Part shown: in pieces, positions 27,432 to 42,810 of the stretch
Position numbering within the stretch: the stretch's first letter is position 1
Layout of the letters: each line of letters begins with the position of its first letter
DNA from: Chlorobiota bacterium
GTDB lineage: Bacteria; Bacteroidota; Ignavibacteria; Kapaibacteriales; UBA961
Length of the DNA stretch: 64,000 nt
Direction of reading: 5' to 3'
Assembly (NCBI GenBank): GCA_014191195.1
Contig: BJGZ01000005.1
Coordinates: 63,557-127,556 of the forward strand
Made by a program: the position numbers and the translations under genes
The notes under the pieces: model-generated
The model's input: only the letters and a program-made list of their open reading frames with translations
Told to the model about the DNA's origin: nothing
Databases searched by the model: none

Positions 27432-29924
27432 CTATCGAATAATGATGAATTGACCTGTTATCACAGATTGATTATTCATGATTCGGAAAGTATAAGAACC
27501 AGCAGGTAAATCTTGCACTGAAACCTGAGCTACACCATTTTGACATTCTATTATTTGTTCTGCATTGATAATTCCTAAAGAAGAAAATATCTGAATAGTT
27601 GCTTGGCCATTATAGTGTGGTAAAGCTATTGAAAGAATTGATGTTGTAGGATTTGGATATACTGTAAAAGAAGAACCAAATACATTTTCTTGAACATCAC
27701 TAACAGAGTTTGAATTTAAAGTAATATTCTTTACTACATTAGGAATCGTAGAATAGTCTGTAGTGATTACTGATTGATATCCTTCAAAGTCAATTTTATC
27801 AGCAATGAGCGTAAATAATCCTTGTCCAAGCTCATCAATTGAATAGACGCCATTATCATCACTTAAACAGTAATCTGAAATTTCATTATTTTCATCTACT
27901 GCATAAATAAATGCACCACCAACACTTAATTCAGTAAGAGGTGAATCTGTTTTAAATGTGCCTTTTTTATTGATGATACCATCTAGTTTAGCAGCACCTT
28001 TTTTGCCTAAAACAGGAACTAGTCTGATATCAAACACAATCGCAATCATATTGTCACCAACAGAAATACGAGTTGCATTTTGCCATTTCTTTGCTGCAAA
28101 ACCACTTGATGTATAATATCCAGGTGCATAATAGCGTGTATCAGGAATGCCAAAAAGAACATATTCACCAGGTTCAAGATTATTAAATACTGCATTTCCT
28201 TCTAAATCTGTATTTAATGTTCTTGCAATACCTTTTTTAGGCTCTTTGCCATTTGCAATTGGCAGTGCAATGATTTTCCCAAATAATCCCTTGCCAGAAG
28301 TATCTTTTAAGGAAGCGGCAAAACCATTCTTAAATACCGGTTTGTCCTGAAGAACAAAGTTGATATTTGTATTTTGAGTTAGCACAATAGTTGTGGCTTC
28401 AGCCATATTTTGTTTGCCATCAAAATAAGATTGCAAGTATAATGCTGAATAATCACCAGTAGGAATTGCCAAGGCTATCATTGCATAGTTTTCTGGTAAT
28501 TCAATTCGATAATTTCCTGTATTATCTGTTTTAACTGAAATGATAACATTTTCTTTTGTACTGCCATTAGGGTTTTTACCGATAAACTGTACAAGTGAAT
28601 TAGGAATACCTTCGCCTTTTGAATTTTTAACTGAACCTTCTACAAGCCAATATTTTGCTTTCTTTTTTAATTCCACAATAGCAGGAATTTCATAAGTATT
28701 GTTGCATGTGGCAACCATTATTTGAGCTAAAGACATCTCCTTAGCATCTTTATACCATTCTTCAATAAAAGACTCACCGGTGAACAAGATTTTATAAGAA
28801 CCTTCTCTAACTTTCATAGACCATTGTCCCATTTTAAAAGCAACAGTATAAGAGCTTTGGCCTAGATTATCTTTTTCCAAACGAATTGCCTTTACAGTAC
28901 CAGAAGCTATTGGCTGGCCATTAGCATCTTTAACATATCCTACCAACATTGCACATGGTTGAGGTTTATCAGATCCTTCGCAATTTTCTTTAACATTAAT
29001 AATCCATGACTGATCGGTTATCAATGTATCATTACCTATTATTTGTATTGCAGCAATAATGACTTTGTATTCTCCAATATTTTTTGGAGCCCATGTAATT
29101 CTTCCAGTTGAAGGATTTATTGTAAGGCCATCTGGTCCTGAAATTAGCTTCCAAACAACAGTTGTTGAATACATAGTTTGAAGTTTAGGCTCATATATAT
29201 ATTCTTTATTTATGCAACCTGTAGTTGAAGGCTTACTTATGATTGAGAATTTCTGTTCAACATTCTTATCGCTTATCTTTAATTCAAATAATTGCGTAAT
29301 AATGGTTTTCGGGGCATCTGTCATTGCACATGTTAAAACAATCTGATACACCCCTGCAATTGGCGATTTCCATTCAATTTTACCATCATTGTTAATAGTC
29401 ATACCATCTGGAGATTTAACTAATGCCCAAGCAAAGCCACCTTTATAATCACTTGGTACAGAAATTTTGGCTATATCTTGATAAGCAATACCAGTATAAC
29501 CAGTTTTTAAAGGTTCGGAAATAAATTTGAATAAAGAATTTGCCTCTTTGATGACAATCATTTTCTTTTCAGTTGGAAGGCTCTCTGAACCAGAATTTTT
29601 TGCAGTTACATATAATTTATATGTTCCAGCAGCTAAGCCCTGTTTAACACATTTTGTTCCACGTGGATCTGCAATTACTTTGAAATCTGTTAAGACACCA
29701 TTAATAGTAGTTGCCATATACACTAAATACTGTGTATTAGAATCTGCATCTTGAGCAGGTTTCCACGTAGCAATTATAGTAGCAGGTGCAGTGTCAGCAC
29801 CTTCAATCGTTACATTGAAATTTGTTGGCGTACCAGGTATCGCCATCAAATTTGCAAATGAAGCAATAGCTAAGAGAGCAATAATCATTACTCTTTTCGC
29901 TATGTTTTGTAGAAAATTCTTCAT
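27432..29924 (-). CDS. T9SS-exported multidomain surface protein
   Basis: An 830-aa secreted protein. After a signal peptide (ending near FANLMA) come an FN3-like segment (about 30-120), two Ig/cadherin-like repeats each carrying a DGxTIN...G-I-W pattern (about 135-300), and several carboxypeptidase-regulatory-like beta domains (about 325-720). The C-terminus is a type A sorting domain with VYPNPTTSILSIALP and PAGSYTFRI. It is probably exported by the type IX system and anchored or released at the surface. It is the last gene of the sigma/anti-sigma/lipoprotein group, 23 bp after the lipoprotein. Confidence 0.88.
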   Translation of the reverse strand: MKNFLQNIAKRVMIIALLAIASFANLMAIPGTPTNFNVTIEGADTAPATIIATWKPAQDADSNTQYLVYMATTINGVLTDFKVIADPRGTKCVKQGLAAGTYKLYVTAKNSGSESLPTEKKMIVIKEANSLFKFISEPLKTGYTGIAYQDIAKISVPSDYKGGFAWALVKSPDGMTINNDGKIEWKSPIAGVYQIVLTCAMTDAPKTIITQLFELKISDKNVEQKFSIISKPSTTGCINKEYIYEPKLQTMYSTTVVWKLISGPDGLTINPSTGRITWAPKNIGEYKVIIAAIQIIGNDTLITDQSWIINVKENCEGSDKPQPCAMLVGYVKDANGQPIASGTVKAIRLEKDNLGQSSYTVAFKMGQWSMKVREGSYKILFTGESFIEEWYKDAKEMSLAQIMVATCNNTYEIPAIVELKKKAKYWLVEGSVKNSKGEGIPNSLVQFIGKNPNGSTKENVIISVKTDNTGNYRIELPENYAMIALAIPTGDYSALYLQSYFDGKQNMAEATTIVLTQNTNINFVLQDKPVFKNGFAASLKDTSGKGLFGKIIALPIANGKEPKKGIARTLNTDLEGNAVFNNLEPGEYVLFGIPDTRYYAPGYYTSSGFAAKKWQNATRISVGDNMIAIVFDIRLVPVLGKKGAAKLDGIINKKGTFKTDSPLTELSVGGAFIYAVDENNEISDYCLSDDNGVYSIDELGQGLFTLIADKIDFEGYQSVITTDYSTIPNVVKNITLNSNSVSDVQENVFGSSFTVYPNPTTSILSIALPHYNGQATIQIFSSLGIINAEQIIECQNGVAQVSVQDLPAGSYTFRIMNNQSVITGQFIIIR

Positions 29925-29947: not shown

Positions 29948-30658
29948 TTACCATTTCAACTTGATTGTATTTTCGCCAGAAATAAATGATTTTTCTTTTT
30001 TATTTTCATTTGTTACTTCAATATTTGGGATAAGGAATTGTAAGAAAATATTCAATTCGCCTTTACCTGTTGTTGATGAATTAGGAGGATACGAACAAGC
30101 AGAAATCAATGACTTGAAAAAAATATCACGTTCTCTTAAAGATATATTTTTGAAAGTTTGATCTAGCTTTTGTACGCCACTTATAATTCTTCTGTTATTT
30201 ATTGTAATTTCTAGTTCAGCATCATCTAACAGAATTGGTTTTAGGGGCAATTGATTTCTAGGGTCTGATTTGATTATGGGAATAATCAATGAATCAATAT
30301 CAAAGCTTATTTTGTTAGGAAAACTTTTAGCTAATTCATTGGTTGCATCTCTTGTAATTAAACCTTTTCCATGTATGCTTAATGTTATTGAATGAGTAAG
30401 AGTAGTATCAATAATAATATCACTTACTGTCAAAGAAGATAAAGTCCAAGACAAGTCTTCTTGATCTTTTTGATTAAATACAGAGTAATTACCTTTGCCT
30501 GAATAAAATATGGATATATCCTTAGAAGCAATATTATTTGTTGATTTGGGCTCAATAATAATATTTCCGCCTAAATCTGTTGGTTCTTTGCACCCACCAA
30601 TAACCTGGGAAATGCAAAGAATACAAATCAATAAAATATGTTTAAACGATATATTCAT
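29948..30658 (-). CDS. Hypothetical lipoprotein in the sigma-factor cluster
   Basis: A 236-aa protein with a signal peptide ending in a lipobox (VIGGC, Cys22), followed by KEPTDLGGNI. The start resembles the opening of Bacteroidota DUF4270 lipoproteins, but the chain is too short and I see no further match. The mature part is beta-rich. It sits between the anti-sigma-like gene (40-bp gap) and the T9SS protein (23-bp gap) on one strand, so it is probably co-expressed and may act in the same envelope process. Confidence 0.75.
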   Translation of the reverse strand: MNISFKHILLICILCISQVIGGCKEPTDLGGNIIIEPKSTNNIASKDISIFYSGKGNYSVFNQKDQEDLSWTLSSLTVSDIIIDTTLTHSITLSIHGKGLITRDATNELAKSFPNKISFDIDSLIIPIIKSDPRNQLPLKPILLDDAELEITINNRRIISGVQKLDQTFKNISLRERDIFFKSLISACSYPPNSSTTGKGELNIFLQFLIPNIEVTNENKKEKSFISGENTIKLKW

Positions 30659-30698: not shown

Positions 30699-31919
30699 TT
30701 AAAATGTAATAGCAATGCCATATAAGATGTCTAATTTATGAGTCTGGAACCAATTTCCTTGATATTGATAATTCATCCAAGATTGTTCGCATCCAATATT
30801 TATTGCAAATTTAGGTGTAATCGGATAGAGAATACCGGTTCCAATTCTTCCTAATAAACCAACTTCGGTTCCGCCAGCAAAACCCGATAGATATAATTGA
30901 GAACCTTTAGCTACAATTTCTTGAGGATTAGTTCTAGCTTGAATAAAAAGTCCACCAGACAACATAGGAGATACTTGATAAAAATCAACTGATCTATTGT
31001 CTTTAATTCCTTGATATTGCAAGGCATATAATTCAAGACCTGTTTCAAATCCTACTGCAAAATTATCAGACAAGGAATATGCGAATGCTAACTTTACATT
31101 GTCTGTTATAGAAGCAGTCGGTTGAATTCCTGAAAATTCATTGCCACTTACGGTCGATAATCCTCGGATTTGAGTCCAGAATAAAGGATATTCTATTATA
31201 TTCTGATTGGTAATCTGAGAAGGTGCAACTGTTTTAGCTACTTCTTCTATCATTTTTGATTCATTTGTCAAAGGTAGTATTGTTACTTCTTTATCTAATA
31301 TAGTTTGCGGTATTTCGGTTATTGAAACATGAGTTGATATTTCATTTGGTGTAGACAATACAGATGCAATATCTATTTTCTTCTCGATAGGTTCTTGTTG
31401 AATAATTCTATCTCTGTACACTATTTTTGTTGGCTGTTGTAAAATTATATCAGGAACCTGTGCATTTTCTCCAGAAGAAATTGCAGCTTGAGATGGTGAA
31501 ACATACGTTTTTGCAGAATTCATTAGAGATAGAAGTTCATTACGATCTTTAGCGTATTTATCGAATGTAAACGCAATGCCTGATCCAATACCTATTGTTA
31601 AAAGAGCCAAAGGAATTATGTATTTTTTCCACATATTCGAATGAGTATGAACAGGTAATTCGGCTACTTTTGGAAGACTTAAACCGATGGAAGAGAAAAT
31701 GATGTCTTTGGACTCAGTTGGAGGTGTGAAGGCTTCGATATCATTTTGAACAGCACTTCGAATGGCTAATAATTCTCTCATTGAAGAGCGAATATCATTA
31801 TTATTAATAGCTAGCTGTGAAAACAATTCTTGTTCTTTTTCTAGTGATAATTCTCCATCTAGAAAAGAAATAAGAAGCTGTTCTGATTCAGATGATAAAT
31901 GTAAATTATTGATATTCAT
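30699..31919 (-). CDS. Membrane anti-sigma-like protein with C-terminal barrel-like domain
   Basis: A 406-aa protein in three parts. Residues 1-75 are helical with an anti-sigma-like opening (LLISFLDGELSLEKEQELF) but no zinc-binding HxxxCxxC. One membrane segment lies near 98-116 (IIPLALLTIGIGSGIAFTF). A linker to about 240 is rich in Pro, Gln and Ser and has a short basic stretch (KIVYRDRII). The last 160 residues alternate Gly, aromatic and polar residues and end in GIAITF, like an outer-membrane barrel closing strand. It follows the ECF sigma gene by 26 bp, so it probably holds that sigma factor at the inner membrane. Confidence 0.78.
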   Translation of the reverse strand: MNINNLHLSSESEQLLISFLDGELSLEKEQELFSQLAINNNDIRSSMRELLAIRSAVQNDIEAFTPPTESKDIIFSSIGLSLPKVAELPVHTHSNMWKKYIIPLALLTIGIGSGIAFTFDKYAKDRNELLSLMNSAKTYVSPSQAAISSGENAQVPDIILQQPTKIVYRDRIIQQEPIEKKIDIASVLSTPNEISTHVSITEIPQTILDKEVTILPLTNESKMIEEVAKTVAPSQITNQNIIEYPLFWTQIRGLSTVSGNEFSGIQPTASITDNVKLAFAYSLSDNFAVGFETGLELYALQYQGIKDNRSVDFYQVSPMLSGGLFIQARTNPQEIVAKGSQLYLSGFAGGTEVGLLGRIGTGILYPITPKFAINIGCEQSWMNYQYQGNWFQTHKLDILYGIAITF

Positions 31920-31945
31920 ATATATACAGCATTAAAAGATGCGAA

Positions 31946-32509
31946 TTATTGTGATAAATCCGATAAATAAGGTGCTAAAATCTCACGAATTTTTTGTTTT
32001 GCTCTAAATATTCTGATTTTTACAGTTGCCAAGCTAGTTTGGGTTAAGTCGGCAATCTCTTGATAACTTAGACCATCATATTCTCTTAACACAAAAGATT
32101 CTCTGTAGTCTTCAGGTAATAACTCTAGGGCAGTAGTAACTAAAGAGAGCAATTCTTTTTTTTCATGCGAATATTCTTCTGTAAAGGGTAAATGATAATC
32201 TTCTAAATTTGTTGTTCTATGATTATTTCTCTGCATATTTAGACATATATTCCTGGCAATTCTTAATAAATAAGCAGGTACATTTGTCATTTCTCTGTTT
32301 TGTTGCGCACTATTAAAGAATCGTATAAATGTTTCTTGAAAAGCATCTTGTGCACTTTCTCGATTACCTAAAATTCTTCTGCAATAAGCAAAAATTCTAG
32401 GAGAATATCTGGCATAAAGTTCTGCAAAAGCTGGCTCTGAAACGCTTTTACCATTTTTCAGTGCAGCATAGAGCTCTATATCGGAAACATGTGCGTTTGA
32501 AGAATTCAT
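31946..32509 (-). CDS. ECF-type RNA polymerase sigma factor
   Basis: A 187-aa sigma-70 family factor of the ECF (RpoE-like) class. Region 2 is YARYSPRIFAYCRRILGN...QDAFQETFIRFF (about 28-66); region 4 is LPEDYRESFVLREYDGLSYQ followed by EIADLTQTSLATVKIRIFRA (about 130-175). It is the first gene of a minus-strand group with its likely membrane anti-sigma partner, a lipoprotein and a T9SS cargo. Such factors usually act on their own operon as well as on envelope genes. Confidence 0.93.
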   Translation of the reverse strand: MNSSNAHVSDIELYAALKNGKSVSEPAFAELYARYSPRIFAYCRRILGNRESAQDAFQETFIRFFNSAQQNREMTNVPAYLLRIARNICLNMQRNNHRTTNLEDYHLPFTEEYSHEKKELLSLVTTALELLPEDYRESFVLREYDGLSYQEIADLTQTSLATVKIRIFRAKQKIREILAPYLSDLSQ

Positions 32510-32591
32510 AAACAGTGCTTAGAGAAACAAACTTTTCATCATAAAGTTACAGATATAAATCTACAACCTATTAACAAATCAAATCATTAGC

Positions 32592-39797: not shown

Positions 39798-42689
39798 CTA
39801 TCTTGAAATCATAAGTTGTTTTACCGATAGCATAGATCCATTTTGAATAATAGCTAGAGAATATACTCCATTAGATAATGAAGATATATCCATAGTTATA
39901 ATATCCTGCATTCTATTGTTCACATTAATCTGTTGAACTTCTTTTCCTAGGAAATCATAGCATATTACTTTGTCGATATATGTGTTGAAAATATTAGATA
40001 TGATTATCGATTCCTTAGCAGGGTTTGGATAGATAATAAAATCTGATTGCTTGTCATCTTGCCTTTTAATATCAGTAGAAGAAGAGAACAGAATATCATC
40101 TATAGACCATCCAGCATCTTGAATAGAACCATTCGATTTAAAACGAAATCGAAGTAAAGCAGTATCAGATTCTGCTTTAAATAGTAATGTCTCTGGTTTC
40201 CAGTCTGCATCATTCTGTTCGCCATCATTCCACGGAGTATAACTATTCCTATTATATGTAGATAATTGATTCCATTGTTTGCCCCAATCAGACGAATATT
40301 CTACAATTGCAGAGTCTTCTATGTCTACAATTGCTGCATGCCAAAATGACAATGCATATGTGCTTTTATTCATTGTTTTGATTGGGAAAATCATAAAAGT
40401 ATCTTTTTCATTTCTTGAATAAAGCCCATCTGGAGATTCATCTAAAGAAAATGGTTTTGAATGGGCAAATACAGAATTGCTTTTAAATGTACCCCCAATA
40501 TGATATTTAGGCAATACAGTTTCGTCAAAGGTTTCGGAATGGTTAGATAATACTGGGCCACCATATGCAAGTATATCAAATGATTTTGCGCTTTCAAGCT
40601 TTGATGCGGATCCATCTTTTATAGTGCTATAATAACGATACCAGCCTTTTTCATTAAGTGAATCAACGATTTTTAATACTTTGCCAGTGTCTGTAATGGA
40701 CAAAGCAAATTCTTTTATCTTCAATCCATCACGAAAAATCAATAATGAATGTGGATTGACAAATGGTGTTATCGTATCTGCTCTGAATGCTGGAATAGAA
40801 ATCGATAATTGTATAGAATTTGGTGATGCTATGGGAGAAAAGGATAAAATCTTTGGAGCCTGTGGTAATTTAGAACCACCTGCTGTACATGAAACTAAGC
40901 GTTCTGCACTGGTGTCTTGGCCAATAATAGCCCTAATTGAATACTTATATAATCTATAAGCAATAACAGATGTATCTCTATAGGTAAACTGTCCAGATGG
41001 AAGAGATGCTAAAAATTGATTATTTCTAAATAAAATATAGGTGCATTCTCCATTTAAACTTTGGCCAAAAGATCGTGCTTTTGGAGCTTCCCAGTATAAT
41101 GTTATAAGCGTAGTATCAATAGATGAAGGCCTTGCCCAAAATGGATCTGGAGGTTGCGGATTTCTAGTATTGATAATTGAAGTGTACACATCATTATCTA
41201 TTTTGGTAATAGCAGCATTACGCATATCTACCCATGATGGATAAATAATACCATCATAGAATGTACATCCACTATAATCACCAGCAAAAACATTGTTCTG
41301 AAATGGATTATTTCTTAAATCACTCGCAGCATCAGAGGCTCTTCTATCTAGCCAAGTATCGCCACCATCGCTAGAATAGCTGATATAACAATTAGTGATG
41401 ATATTTTGTTTGTCATCCCTAGAATCTAAATACATAACAGCTATATCACCATTTGTAGGGTCTATACTTATCCATGGCCAAAATTGATCATTTATATTGT
41501 CTGAATGAATAATCTTAGCCTTAGACCACGTATTTCCTTCATCGGTGGATCTAGAAAAATAAATATTTGGAATTGAATCGGCTGCCCATACCAAATATAA
41601 ATATCCTTTTCTTTTGTCTGAATATATATCACAGGTTAAAGATGGATATGCTTCTGCTCGGACACCGCCTTTTAATGTATGCCTAGGCCCTTCCGATAAA
41701 TCTTTGGCAATTCCAAAGGTATTATATGTTTGTATGATTTCTGGATTAGAAAATGTAATGCCACCATCAATGGATTTAGAAAAACCTATGGATTTTTTAG
41801 GACCAAAATTCCAGACAGTATATACTTGTCCTAAAGGGCCTGTTACAGATAATGGGAAGCTCTGCCCGAATGTTGTATCCTCTGAAATACCCGATATTCT
41901 ATTGCTTACTTGAACTGGTACAGACCAAGTATTTCCTTGATCTGTAGAGTATACATTGACAATTTGTGTTGATGAGTCTCGATTAATGACGCGTTTCCAA
42001 GGTATATATAATCGTTTATAATATGGTGATATAGGGGAATTGTCCGACCATATATAATATTTGTCTTCAAAACTTGAATCTGGAGTTTGATCTCCCACAT
42101 GTTGTATTACGGGAATATGCTTTATCCACGTTAAACCACCATCGGTTGTTTTAGAAAAAAATACTCCATTTTCAGGAGACACTTTGGCTCTGTCTCCAAA
42201 AGCACCATATACTAAGAATCCTATTCCATCATTATTAAACGCTACGGAAGGGTCATTGCTGGAAGTTGTCATTTTAGGTGGTTTCCCCAGATTTGTATTC
42301 TTCCACGTTTTTCCTCCATCAAATGAATGATACACCCATGTAGATGAATTAGAGCGATAATCTACAGCAGATCCAATTAAATTTTTGGGATTCTTAGGAT
42401 TAATTGCGATTGAGGATTCATTTTGAACAGGAATTTGATCTGTTTCTGTAACAATCATATTTGCATTATCAAAAAACAAAGAATTTACTTCAATTGATTG
42501 CACCATTGGAATCATTGGGCTTGCACTATATTTTTGTAAGTGTGGAGTAGGATGTGCACTTTCCATATACCTTTTTAATGCTTCTCCAGCTTTTTTTAAT
42601 TCATTATATCTTTCATTGTTTTGTGCTTGTAGGGTACATGAAAAAAAGCACAATGCAAATAGTAGGCGAGTGTAGTATGTGTGAGTCAT
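39798..42689 (-). CDS. T9SS-exported protein with BNR/Asp-box (sialidase-like) repeats
   Basis: About 963 aa from ATG 42689, chosen because it gives a clean signal peptide (MTHTYYTRLLFALCFFSCTL, then QAQ). The frame is open back to 42755. The propeller region holds at least six Asp-box-like motifs (SFDGGKTW, TTDGGLTW, STDQGNTW, SIDGGITF, STDEGNTW, SSDGGDTW), a sialidase-type fold without the Arg triad I could identify. FN3-like and jelly-roll-like domains follow (about 530-880). The end is a Por-type sorting domain (FIIYPNPAKESIIIS, GVYSLAI). Probably secreted by T9SS; enzymatic activity uncertain. Confidence 0.88.
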   Translation of the reverse strand: MTHTYYTRLLFALCFFSCTLQAQNNERYNELKKAGEALKRYMESAHPTPHLQKYSASPMIPMVQSIEVNSLFFDNANMIVTETDQIPVQNESSIAINPKNPKNLIGSAVDYRSNSSTWVYHSFDGGKTWKNTNLGKPPKMTTSSNDPSVAFNNDGIGFLVYGAFGDRAKVSPENGVFFSKTTDGGLTWIKHIPVIQHVGDQTPDSSFEDKYYIWSDNSPISPYYKRLYIPWKRVINRDSSTQIVNVYSTDQGNTWSVPVQVSNRISGISEDTTFGQSFPLSVTGPLGQVYTVWNFGPKKSIGFSKSIDGGITFSNPEIIQTYNTFGIAKDLSEGPRHTLKGGVRAEAYPSLTCDIYSDKRKGYLYLVWAADSIPNIYFSRSTDEGNTWSKAKIIHSDNINDQFWPWISIDPTNGDIAVMYLDSRDDKQNIITNCYISYSSDGGDTWLDRRASDAASDLRNNPFQNNVFAGDYSGCTFYDGIIYPSWVDMRNAAITKIDNDVYTSIINTRNPQPPDPFWARPSSIDTTLITLYWEAPKARSFGQSLNGECTYILFRNNQFLASLPSGQFTYRDTSVIAYRLYKYSIRAIIGQDTSAERLVSCTAGGSKLPQAPKILSFSPIASPNSIQLSISIPAFRADTITPFVNPHSLLIFRDGLKIKEFALSITDTGKVLKIVDSLNEKGWYRYYSTIKDGSASKLESAKSFDILAYGGPVLSNHSETFDETVLPKYHIGGTFKSNSVFAHSKPFSLDESPDGLYSRNEKDTFMIFPIKTMNKSTYALSFWHAAIVDIEDSAIVEYSSDWGKQWNQLSTYNRNSYTPWNDGEQNDADWKPETLLFKAESDTALLRFRFKSNGSIQDAGWSIDDILFSSSTDIKRQDDKQSDFIIYPNPAKESIIISNIFNTYIDKVICYDFLGKEVQQINVNNRMQDIITMDISSLSNGVYSLAIIQNGSMLSVKQLMISR

Positions 42690-42810
42690 AATTGTATATT
42701 GTTTTAATAATATGAAGTATACAAAACTAGGCTTTTCCACTTCAAAGAAAAGCACGAAATTTGTGCATACAATATTGTTCTACATATAATATAATCATAA
42801 GGAACATATC

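Follow-up and report, generated by a model that had tools for sequence, protein, structure and literature searches.

The Dma anti-sigma factors and their Das sigma factors are reportedly the subject of a 2024 PNAS paper (10.1073/pnas.2321910121), which is cited in the study from which the following description is taken. Dma1, Dma2, and Dma3 occur with Das sigma factors in Bacteroides thetaiotaomicron, and their design combines an N-terminal anti-sigma domain, one membrane helix, a long disordered tether, and a C-terminal barrel, with the gene for an ECF sigma factor adjacent (PMC13088901). The family's sigma factors belong to class ECF21, and the family is restricted to Bacteroidota (PMC13088901). 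Deletion of Dma activates the sigma factor, and Dma controls vesiculation; loss of dma2 raises vesiculation in a manner that requires das2, and Dma2 (BT_1558) is encoded in a three-gene operon together with a protein of unknown function (PMC13088901). Dma factors have so far been described from a few Bacteroides genes, and the dual-membrane anti-sigma design is already published under this name (PMC13088901). What is new here is the distribution of this design in Kapabacteria, where it is universal in our sample, along with its high copy number, its promoter, and its link to lipoproteins. Among the papers searched, none dealt with Kapabacteria together with anti-sigma factors.

Results

We analyzed a stretch of 64,000 nt (the window) from an assembly of 2.41 Mb. 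The minus strand of the window carries four close genes in the same direction, encoding an ECF sigma factor, a 406-aa protein, a lipoprotein, and an 830-aa protein, with intergenic gaps of 26, 40, and 23 nt in order from the sigma gene. The unit begins at the sigma gene, because the neighboring gene in front (32696, plus strand) points the opposite way. The sigma factor (187 aa; 31946–32509, minus strand) is matched by Pfam Sigma70_r2 and r4_2 and by NCBIfam TIGR02937, the latter scoring 94.9 bits (cut-off 42.9). The second gene (30699–31919, minus strand) encodes what we describe, from its open reading frame, AlphaFold2 modeling, and homologue searches, as a Dma-like dual-membrane anti-sigma factor. 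The third (29948–30658, minus strand) encodes a lipoprotein of 236 aa, in which the lipobox reads ...VIGG ahead of CKEPTDLGG. The fourth (27432–29924, minus strand) encodes a secreted protein in which Pfam and NCBIfam identify CarboxypepD_reg/Ig-like domains and a T9SS sorting tail; lying 23 nt behind the lipoprotein gene, it is probably co-transcribed with the unit, and genes related to it come next in several loci of the family. Another protein with a T9SS sorting tail, a 985-aa BNR-repeat protein (39798–42755, minus strand), stands alone in the window.

The initial annotation of this DNA had described a 406-aa protein behind an ECF sigma gene, with a helical, anti-sigma-like N-terminus lacking a zinc motif, one membrane helix at about residues 98–116, a long linker, and a 160-residue beta-rich tail ending in Phe. 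That description held in every part; the lipoprotein gene, the gene for the T9SS-tailed protein, and the upstream promoter are additions to it. The open reading frames are exactly as claimed, and an AlphaFold2 model built from a 30-homologue alignment shows a four-helix head, a membrane helix, a disordered linker, and a tail of eight strands. The head, assigned as the anti-sigma domain from the model and a head-only profile (residues 1–80; 31680–31919, minus strand), has helices at residues 4–20, 26–37, 41–59, and 61–64 with 68–77, and contains no cysteine and so no zinc motif. This arrangement agrees with the class I anti-sigma domain (ASDI), described as a three-helix bundle with a separate fourth helix in which zinc is optional (PMC7406223). 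Searched against Pfam and NCBIfam, the 406-aa protein fell into no family, with no zf-HC2, RseA, or FecR match above cut-off; some of its relatives gave weak matches to zf-HC2, RseA_N, or OMP_b-brl.

Evidence on the role of the head came from a profile of residues 1–90 alone, which, searched across the phylum, recovered proteins with quite different tails. These were 150–170 aa long in a number of families within the same class and 180–280 or fewer than 90 aa elsewhere, and nearly all that were examined lay directly behind an ECF sigma gene, among them proteins from other Bacteroidota classes. In the family, pairwise distances between heads correlated more closely with those between the sigma factors (0.558) than did distances between barrels (0.340), though head and barrel are part of one chain. 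By profile matches and co-divergence, the head thus behaves as the predicted sigma-binding domain. Behind it, a hydrophobic segment at about residues 98–116 (31572–31628, minus strand) sits within a longer predicted helix (96–139) and is assigned as the inner-membrane helix; hydropathy peaks near residue 98 across 80 family members, and the positive-inside bias flanking the helix is weak. The predicted periplasmic tether follows (residues 140–243; 31191–31502, minus strand), with pLDDT below 50 over residues 140–239. Across the family, helix and barrel are separated by a median of 133 aa (5–95% range 110–182). Fully extended, a tether of such length can span a periplasm.

The remainder of the chain (residues 244–406; 30702–31190, minus strand) is modeled as an eight-stranded beta-barrel of outer-membrane type. 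The strands occupy residues 246–405 with pLDDT mostly above 85, and the chain terminates in Phe. Comparison of the tail with the PDB gave OprF (Z 15.5, rmsd 2.7, 120 aligned), NspA (Z 15.2), and OmpA (Z 14.8), whereas soluble avidin barrels scored lower (Z 10.3–10.8). The C-terminus reads L-Y-G-I-A-I-T-F in the window protein and often T-Y-G-V-A-V-R-F in relatives. Defining a BAM-type beta-signal as a polar residue at −8, Gly at −6, and hydrophobic residues at −3 and at the end, we detected it in 50 of 80 distinct full-length members, compared with 0.8% of 397 other open reading frames from the same loci. Bulky and small residues alternate along the strands (p = 0.0035 against within-strand shuffles), a pattern that is clear in some strands only and missing from 309–329. 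When the terminal Phe and each strand's bulky side are used to fix the register, the charged positions that are conserved best (R252, E292, E296, E378, and K395) are all predicted to point inward. The predicted surface loops are very short, except for the first. By fold and beta-signal, the tail is an OmpA-class barrel, and its insertion into the outer membrane appears probable on the strength of the model.

We examined how widely the protein and its sigma factor are found together. Of 61 related genomes, 58 contain full-length homologues, as a rule several per genome, and a profile of the barrel matched all 41 sampled genomes of the order (Kapabacteria), with up to 21 matches per genome. Some 150 barrel matches were listed, nearly all within open frames of 360–579 aa; three of these listed matches lay in shorter frames, of 166 (at a contig edge), 216, and 270 aa. 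A contig profile search with a narrow alignment yielded 12 loci, mostly from Kapabacteria. An ECF sigma gene lies directly upstream on the same strand in 78 of 80 distinct full-length members, at a median gap of 20 nt. One of the two exceptions has an overlapping sigma open reading frame that falls outside the gap rule, and the other has no sigma gene. As members were collected with the anti-sigma sequence alone, this adjacency was not built into the set. A second copy in the same genome (G000:C11:32830–33948; L002, L075), of 28% identity, lies behind its own sigma gene and is followed by a different lipoprotein-like gene, of 381 aa. Outside the order, full-length relatives with Phe ends and adjacent ECF sigma genes were seen at two loci of another family of the same class (L159 and L192), where matches to the barrel profile were weak (E 0.004 and 1.4e-6).

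The annotation had further proposed that one chain could span the inner membrane and reach, or resemble, an outer-membrane barrel, and had suggested predicting the structure of the full chain and searching head and tail separately. The proposal is well supported by prediction, through the AlphaFold2 model, the Z scores of about 15, and the beta-signal: the tail came out as an outer-membrane-type barrel rather than a soluble periplasmic fold. Residues 1–90 led to ECF-adjacent open reading frames with unrelated tails in other Bacteroidota classes, the barrel was almost never found outside the long chain, and the fusion of the two does recur beside ECF sigma genes.

We then considered the promoter of the unit. 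Approximately 16 nt before the sigma ATG lies an ECF-type sequence, TGTAAC-N16-TGTTt (32525–32551, minus strand), which is exact for TGTAAC-N16-TGTT at 32526–32551. The motif TGTAAC-N16-TGTTA is enriched before sigma genes of the family, scoring at least 9 of 11 in 43 of 76 upstream regions, where shuffles predict 4.65, and at least 10 in 23 of the 76, where they predict 0.5. Enrichment across these 76 regions is confined to a spacer of 16. The window's own site is the sole one common to all four genus genomes among the exact sites that they contain. The presence of this ECF-type promoter before the sigma genes, that of the window included, implies autoregulation. Genome-wide, the 8 exact sites do not exceed the reversed-pattern control (9), and we therefore claim no wide regulon; the promoter data fit autoregulation, perhaps with a very small regulon in addition. 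An exact copy of the promoter was also seen at G000:C11:52231–52256 (L222), 142 nt before the gene for a 242-aa lipoprotein whose sequence opens with CTDPSGIVQP; this gene may be another target of a sigma factor of this kind.

Finally, we looked at the gene behind the anti-sigma factor. A lipoprotein-like gene is found right behind 63 of the 78 sigma/anti-sigma pairs, and 39 of the 63 distinct adjacent lipoproteins start with C-x-x-P-x-[DEG], against 1 of 29 other lipoproteins from the same loci. The adjacent lipoproteins (loci L001–L134) are alike in little beyond the C-x-x-P-x-D start after the lipidated Cys, which is possibly a docking peptide; their bodies are unrelated. We tried treating them as one family and rejected this, as the resulting profile of 67–86 hits had drifted to signal peptides and the C-x-x-P-x-D start. 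Judged by eye from the alignment, the lipoprotein bodies at L040 and L042 look VWA-like. The window's own lipoprotein was modeled with moderate confidence as a beta-rich domain, and its matches in the PDB were weak only (E 0.005 at best by Foldseek, Z 8.0 at best by VIA), so we assign it no fold.

Discussion

The computed architecture, barrel fold, beta-signal, sigma adjacency, head–sigma co-divergence, and promoter motif are best explained by a single-chain anti-sigma factor that joins an ECF sigma factor to an outer-membrane barrel, and we consider this explanation highly probable. Under such a scheme, the head would hold its cognate ECF sigma factor in the cytoplasm in an inactive state, the one helix would cross the inner membrane, and the tether of 100–130 residues would cross the periplasm. 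The BAM machinery would insert the eight-stranded barrel into the outer membrane, leaving the chain anchored at both membranes. The trigger would be a change at the outer membrane, whether in the state or assembly of the barrel, through a ligand, or through the lipoprotein partner encoded in the operon. The signal would then return along the chain, most likely as tension on the tether or its cleavage, and the sigma factor would be freed. It could then transcribe its own operon from TGTAAC-N16-TGTTA, producing sigma factor, anti-sigma factor, lipoprotein, and, here, the T9SS-secreted surface protein.

The strongest alternative is a variant of this explanation that differs in the signal, and we hold it to be a good deal less likely than the general scheme. 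The protein might be a built-in reporter of assembly: an overloaded BAM would leave the tail unassembled and its C-terminal signal exposed, and periplasmic proteases would then cleave the tail and release the sigma factor, as with RseA and DegS except that here the signal is part of the chain itself. The beta-signal conserved at the very end of the chain is in favor of this reading, and very short predicted loops beyond the first are more what one would expect of a structural reporter than of a receptor for a ligand. However, as many as 21 paralogues in one genome, together with lipoproteins specific to each operon, suggest many specific signals rather than one general stress. A slightly more tentative elaboration takes up this point and makes the lipoprotein a component of a three-part surface sensor. 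Its C-x-x-P-x-D start might engage the barrel, for example in the lumen, where the predicted inward face bears the most conserved charged residues of the family. Bodies of VWA-like, beta-sandwich, or other type would be swapped according to the surface signal, so that a single tether-and-barrel chassis would have been multiplied in Kapabacteria into as many as 21 channels per cell.

We consider it improbable that the tail is instead a soluble, periplasmic eight-stranded barrel of avidin- or lipocalin-like type, in which case the protein would be an inner-membrane anti-sigma factor of the ordinary kind, with its sensor in the periplasm. Barrels of the avidin type and of PsbO are indeed among the structural matches, at Z of about 10, and some strands show the outward/inward pattern only weakly. 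OmpA-class barrels nevertheless score clearly higher, at about 15, and the beta-signal, with its Gly at −6 and aromatic or hydrophobic end, is strongly enriched. Weak OMP_b-brl matches in some members point the same way, and a tether of 110–180 residues would have no obvious use for a periplasmic domain. That an outer-membrane structural protein without any anti-sigma role lies beside the sigma gene by chance is hardly credible: no anti-sigma family model matched above cut-off, but an ECF sigma gene stands immediately in front of 78 of 80 members and also in front of head homologues whose tails are quite different, and the head co-diverges with the sigma factor.

Among known systems, the dual-membrane anti-sigma factor proposed here shares with RseA, which acts with DegS and RseB on sigma-E, a zinc-free four-helix head and one membrane helix. 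RseA, however, has a small periplasmic end and senses outer-membrane proteins through separate proteins, whereas the chain described here has a barrel of its own. FecIR/FecA likewise relays the state of the outer membrane to an ECF sigma factor via an inner-membrane anti-sigma factor, but there a distinct protein, a TonB-dependent receptor, forms the outer-membrane part; here, that part is in the same chain and has only eight strands. The short ECF anti-sigma factors from other orders of the class (150–170 aa; for example at L070, L071, and L072) have a homologous head and, as here, follow a sigma gene and precede a lipoprotein-like gene, but they have neither tether nor barrel. They likely picture the state before the barrel was added, and such relatives, which share the head and are often followed by a lipoprotein-like gene, hint at how the barrel may have joined an ordinary anti-sigma factor.

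The closest likeness is to Dma, as the head, single helix, tether, barrel, and adjacent ECF sigma gene are all present in this unit, and both occur in Bacteroidota, where NCBI places Candidatus Kapaibacterium, the nearest named relatives. By architecture and sigma pairing, the 406-aa protein is of Dma type; this is a likeness of design. A search of the window's genome with PF12667 (NigD_N) gave no match. Across 16 genomes of the NigD-bearing family, no clear homologue was detected with the family profile, and searches by profile in further families, one large family among them, yielded no Bacteroides Dma sequence. The systems differ in the T9SS protein of the window unit and in the third gene, which in Dma2's three-gene operon encodes the protein mentioned above and here is usually a lipoprotein with the C-x-x-P-x-D start. 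The family alignment presented here points to barrel residues and a partner protein worth testing. Dma was described in Bacteroidia, whereas in Kapabacteria the barrel tail is found in 41 of 41 genomes, in up to 21 copies. The same architecture recurs throughout an entire distant order, multiplied within its genomes and accompanied by a conserved promoter and a lipoprotein partner, which suggests that single-chain signaling from outer membrane to sigma factor is a major regulatory route of Bacteroidota and not a speciality of the gut.
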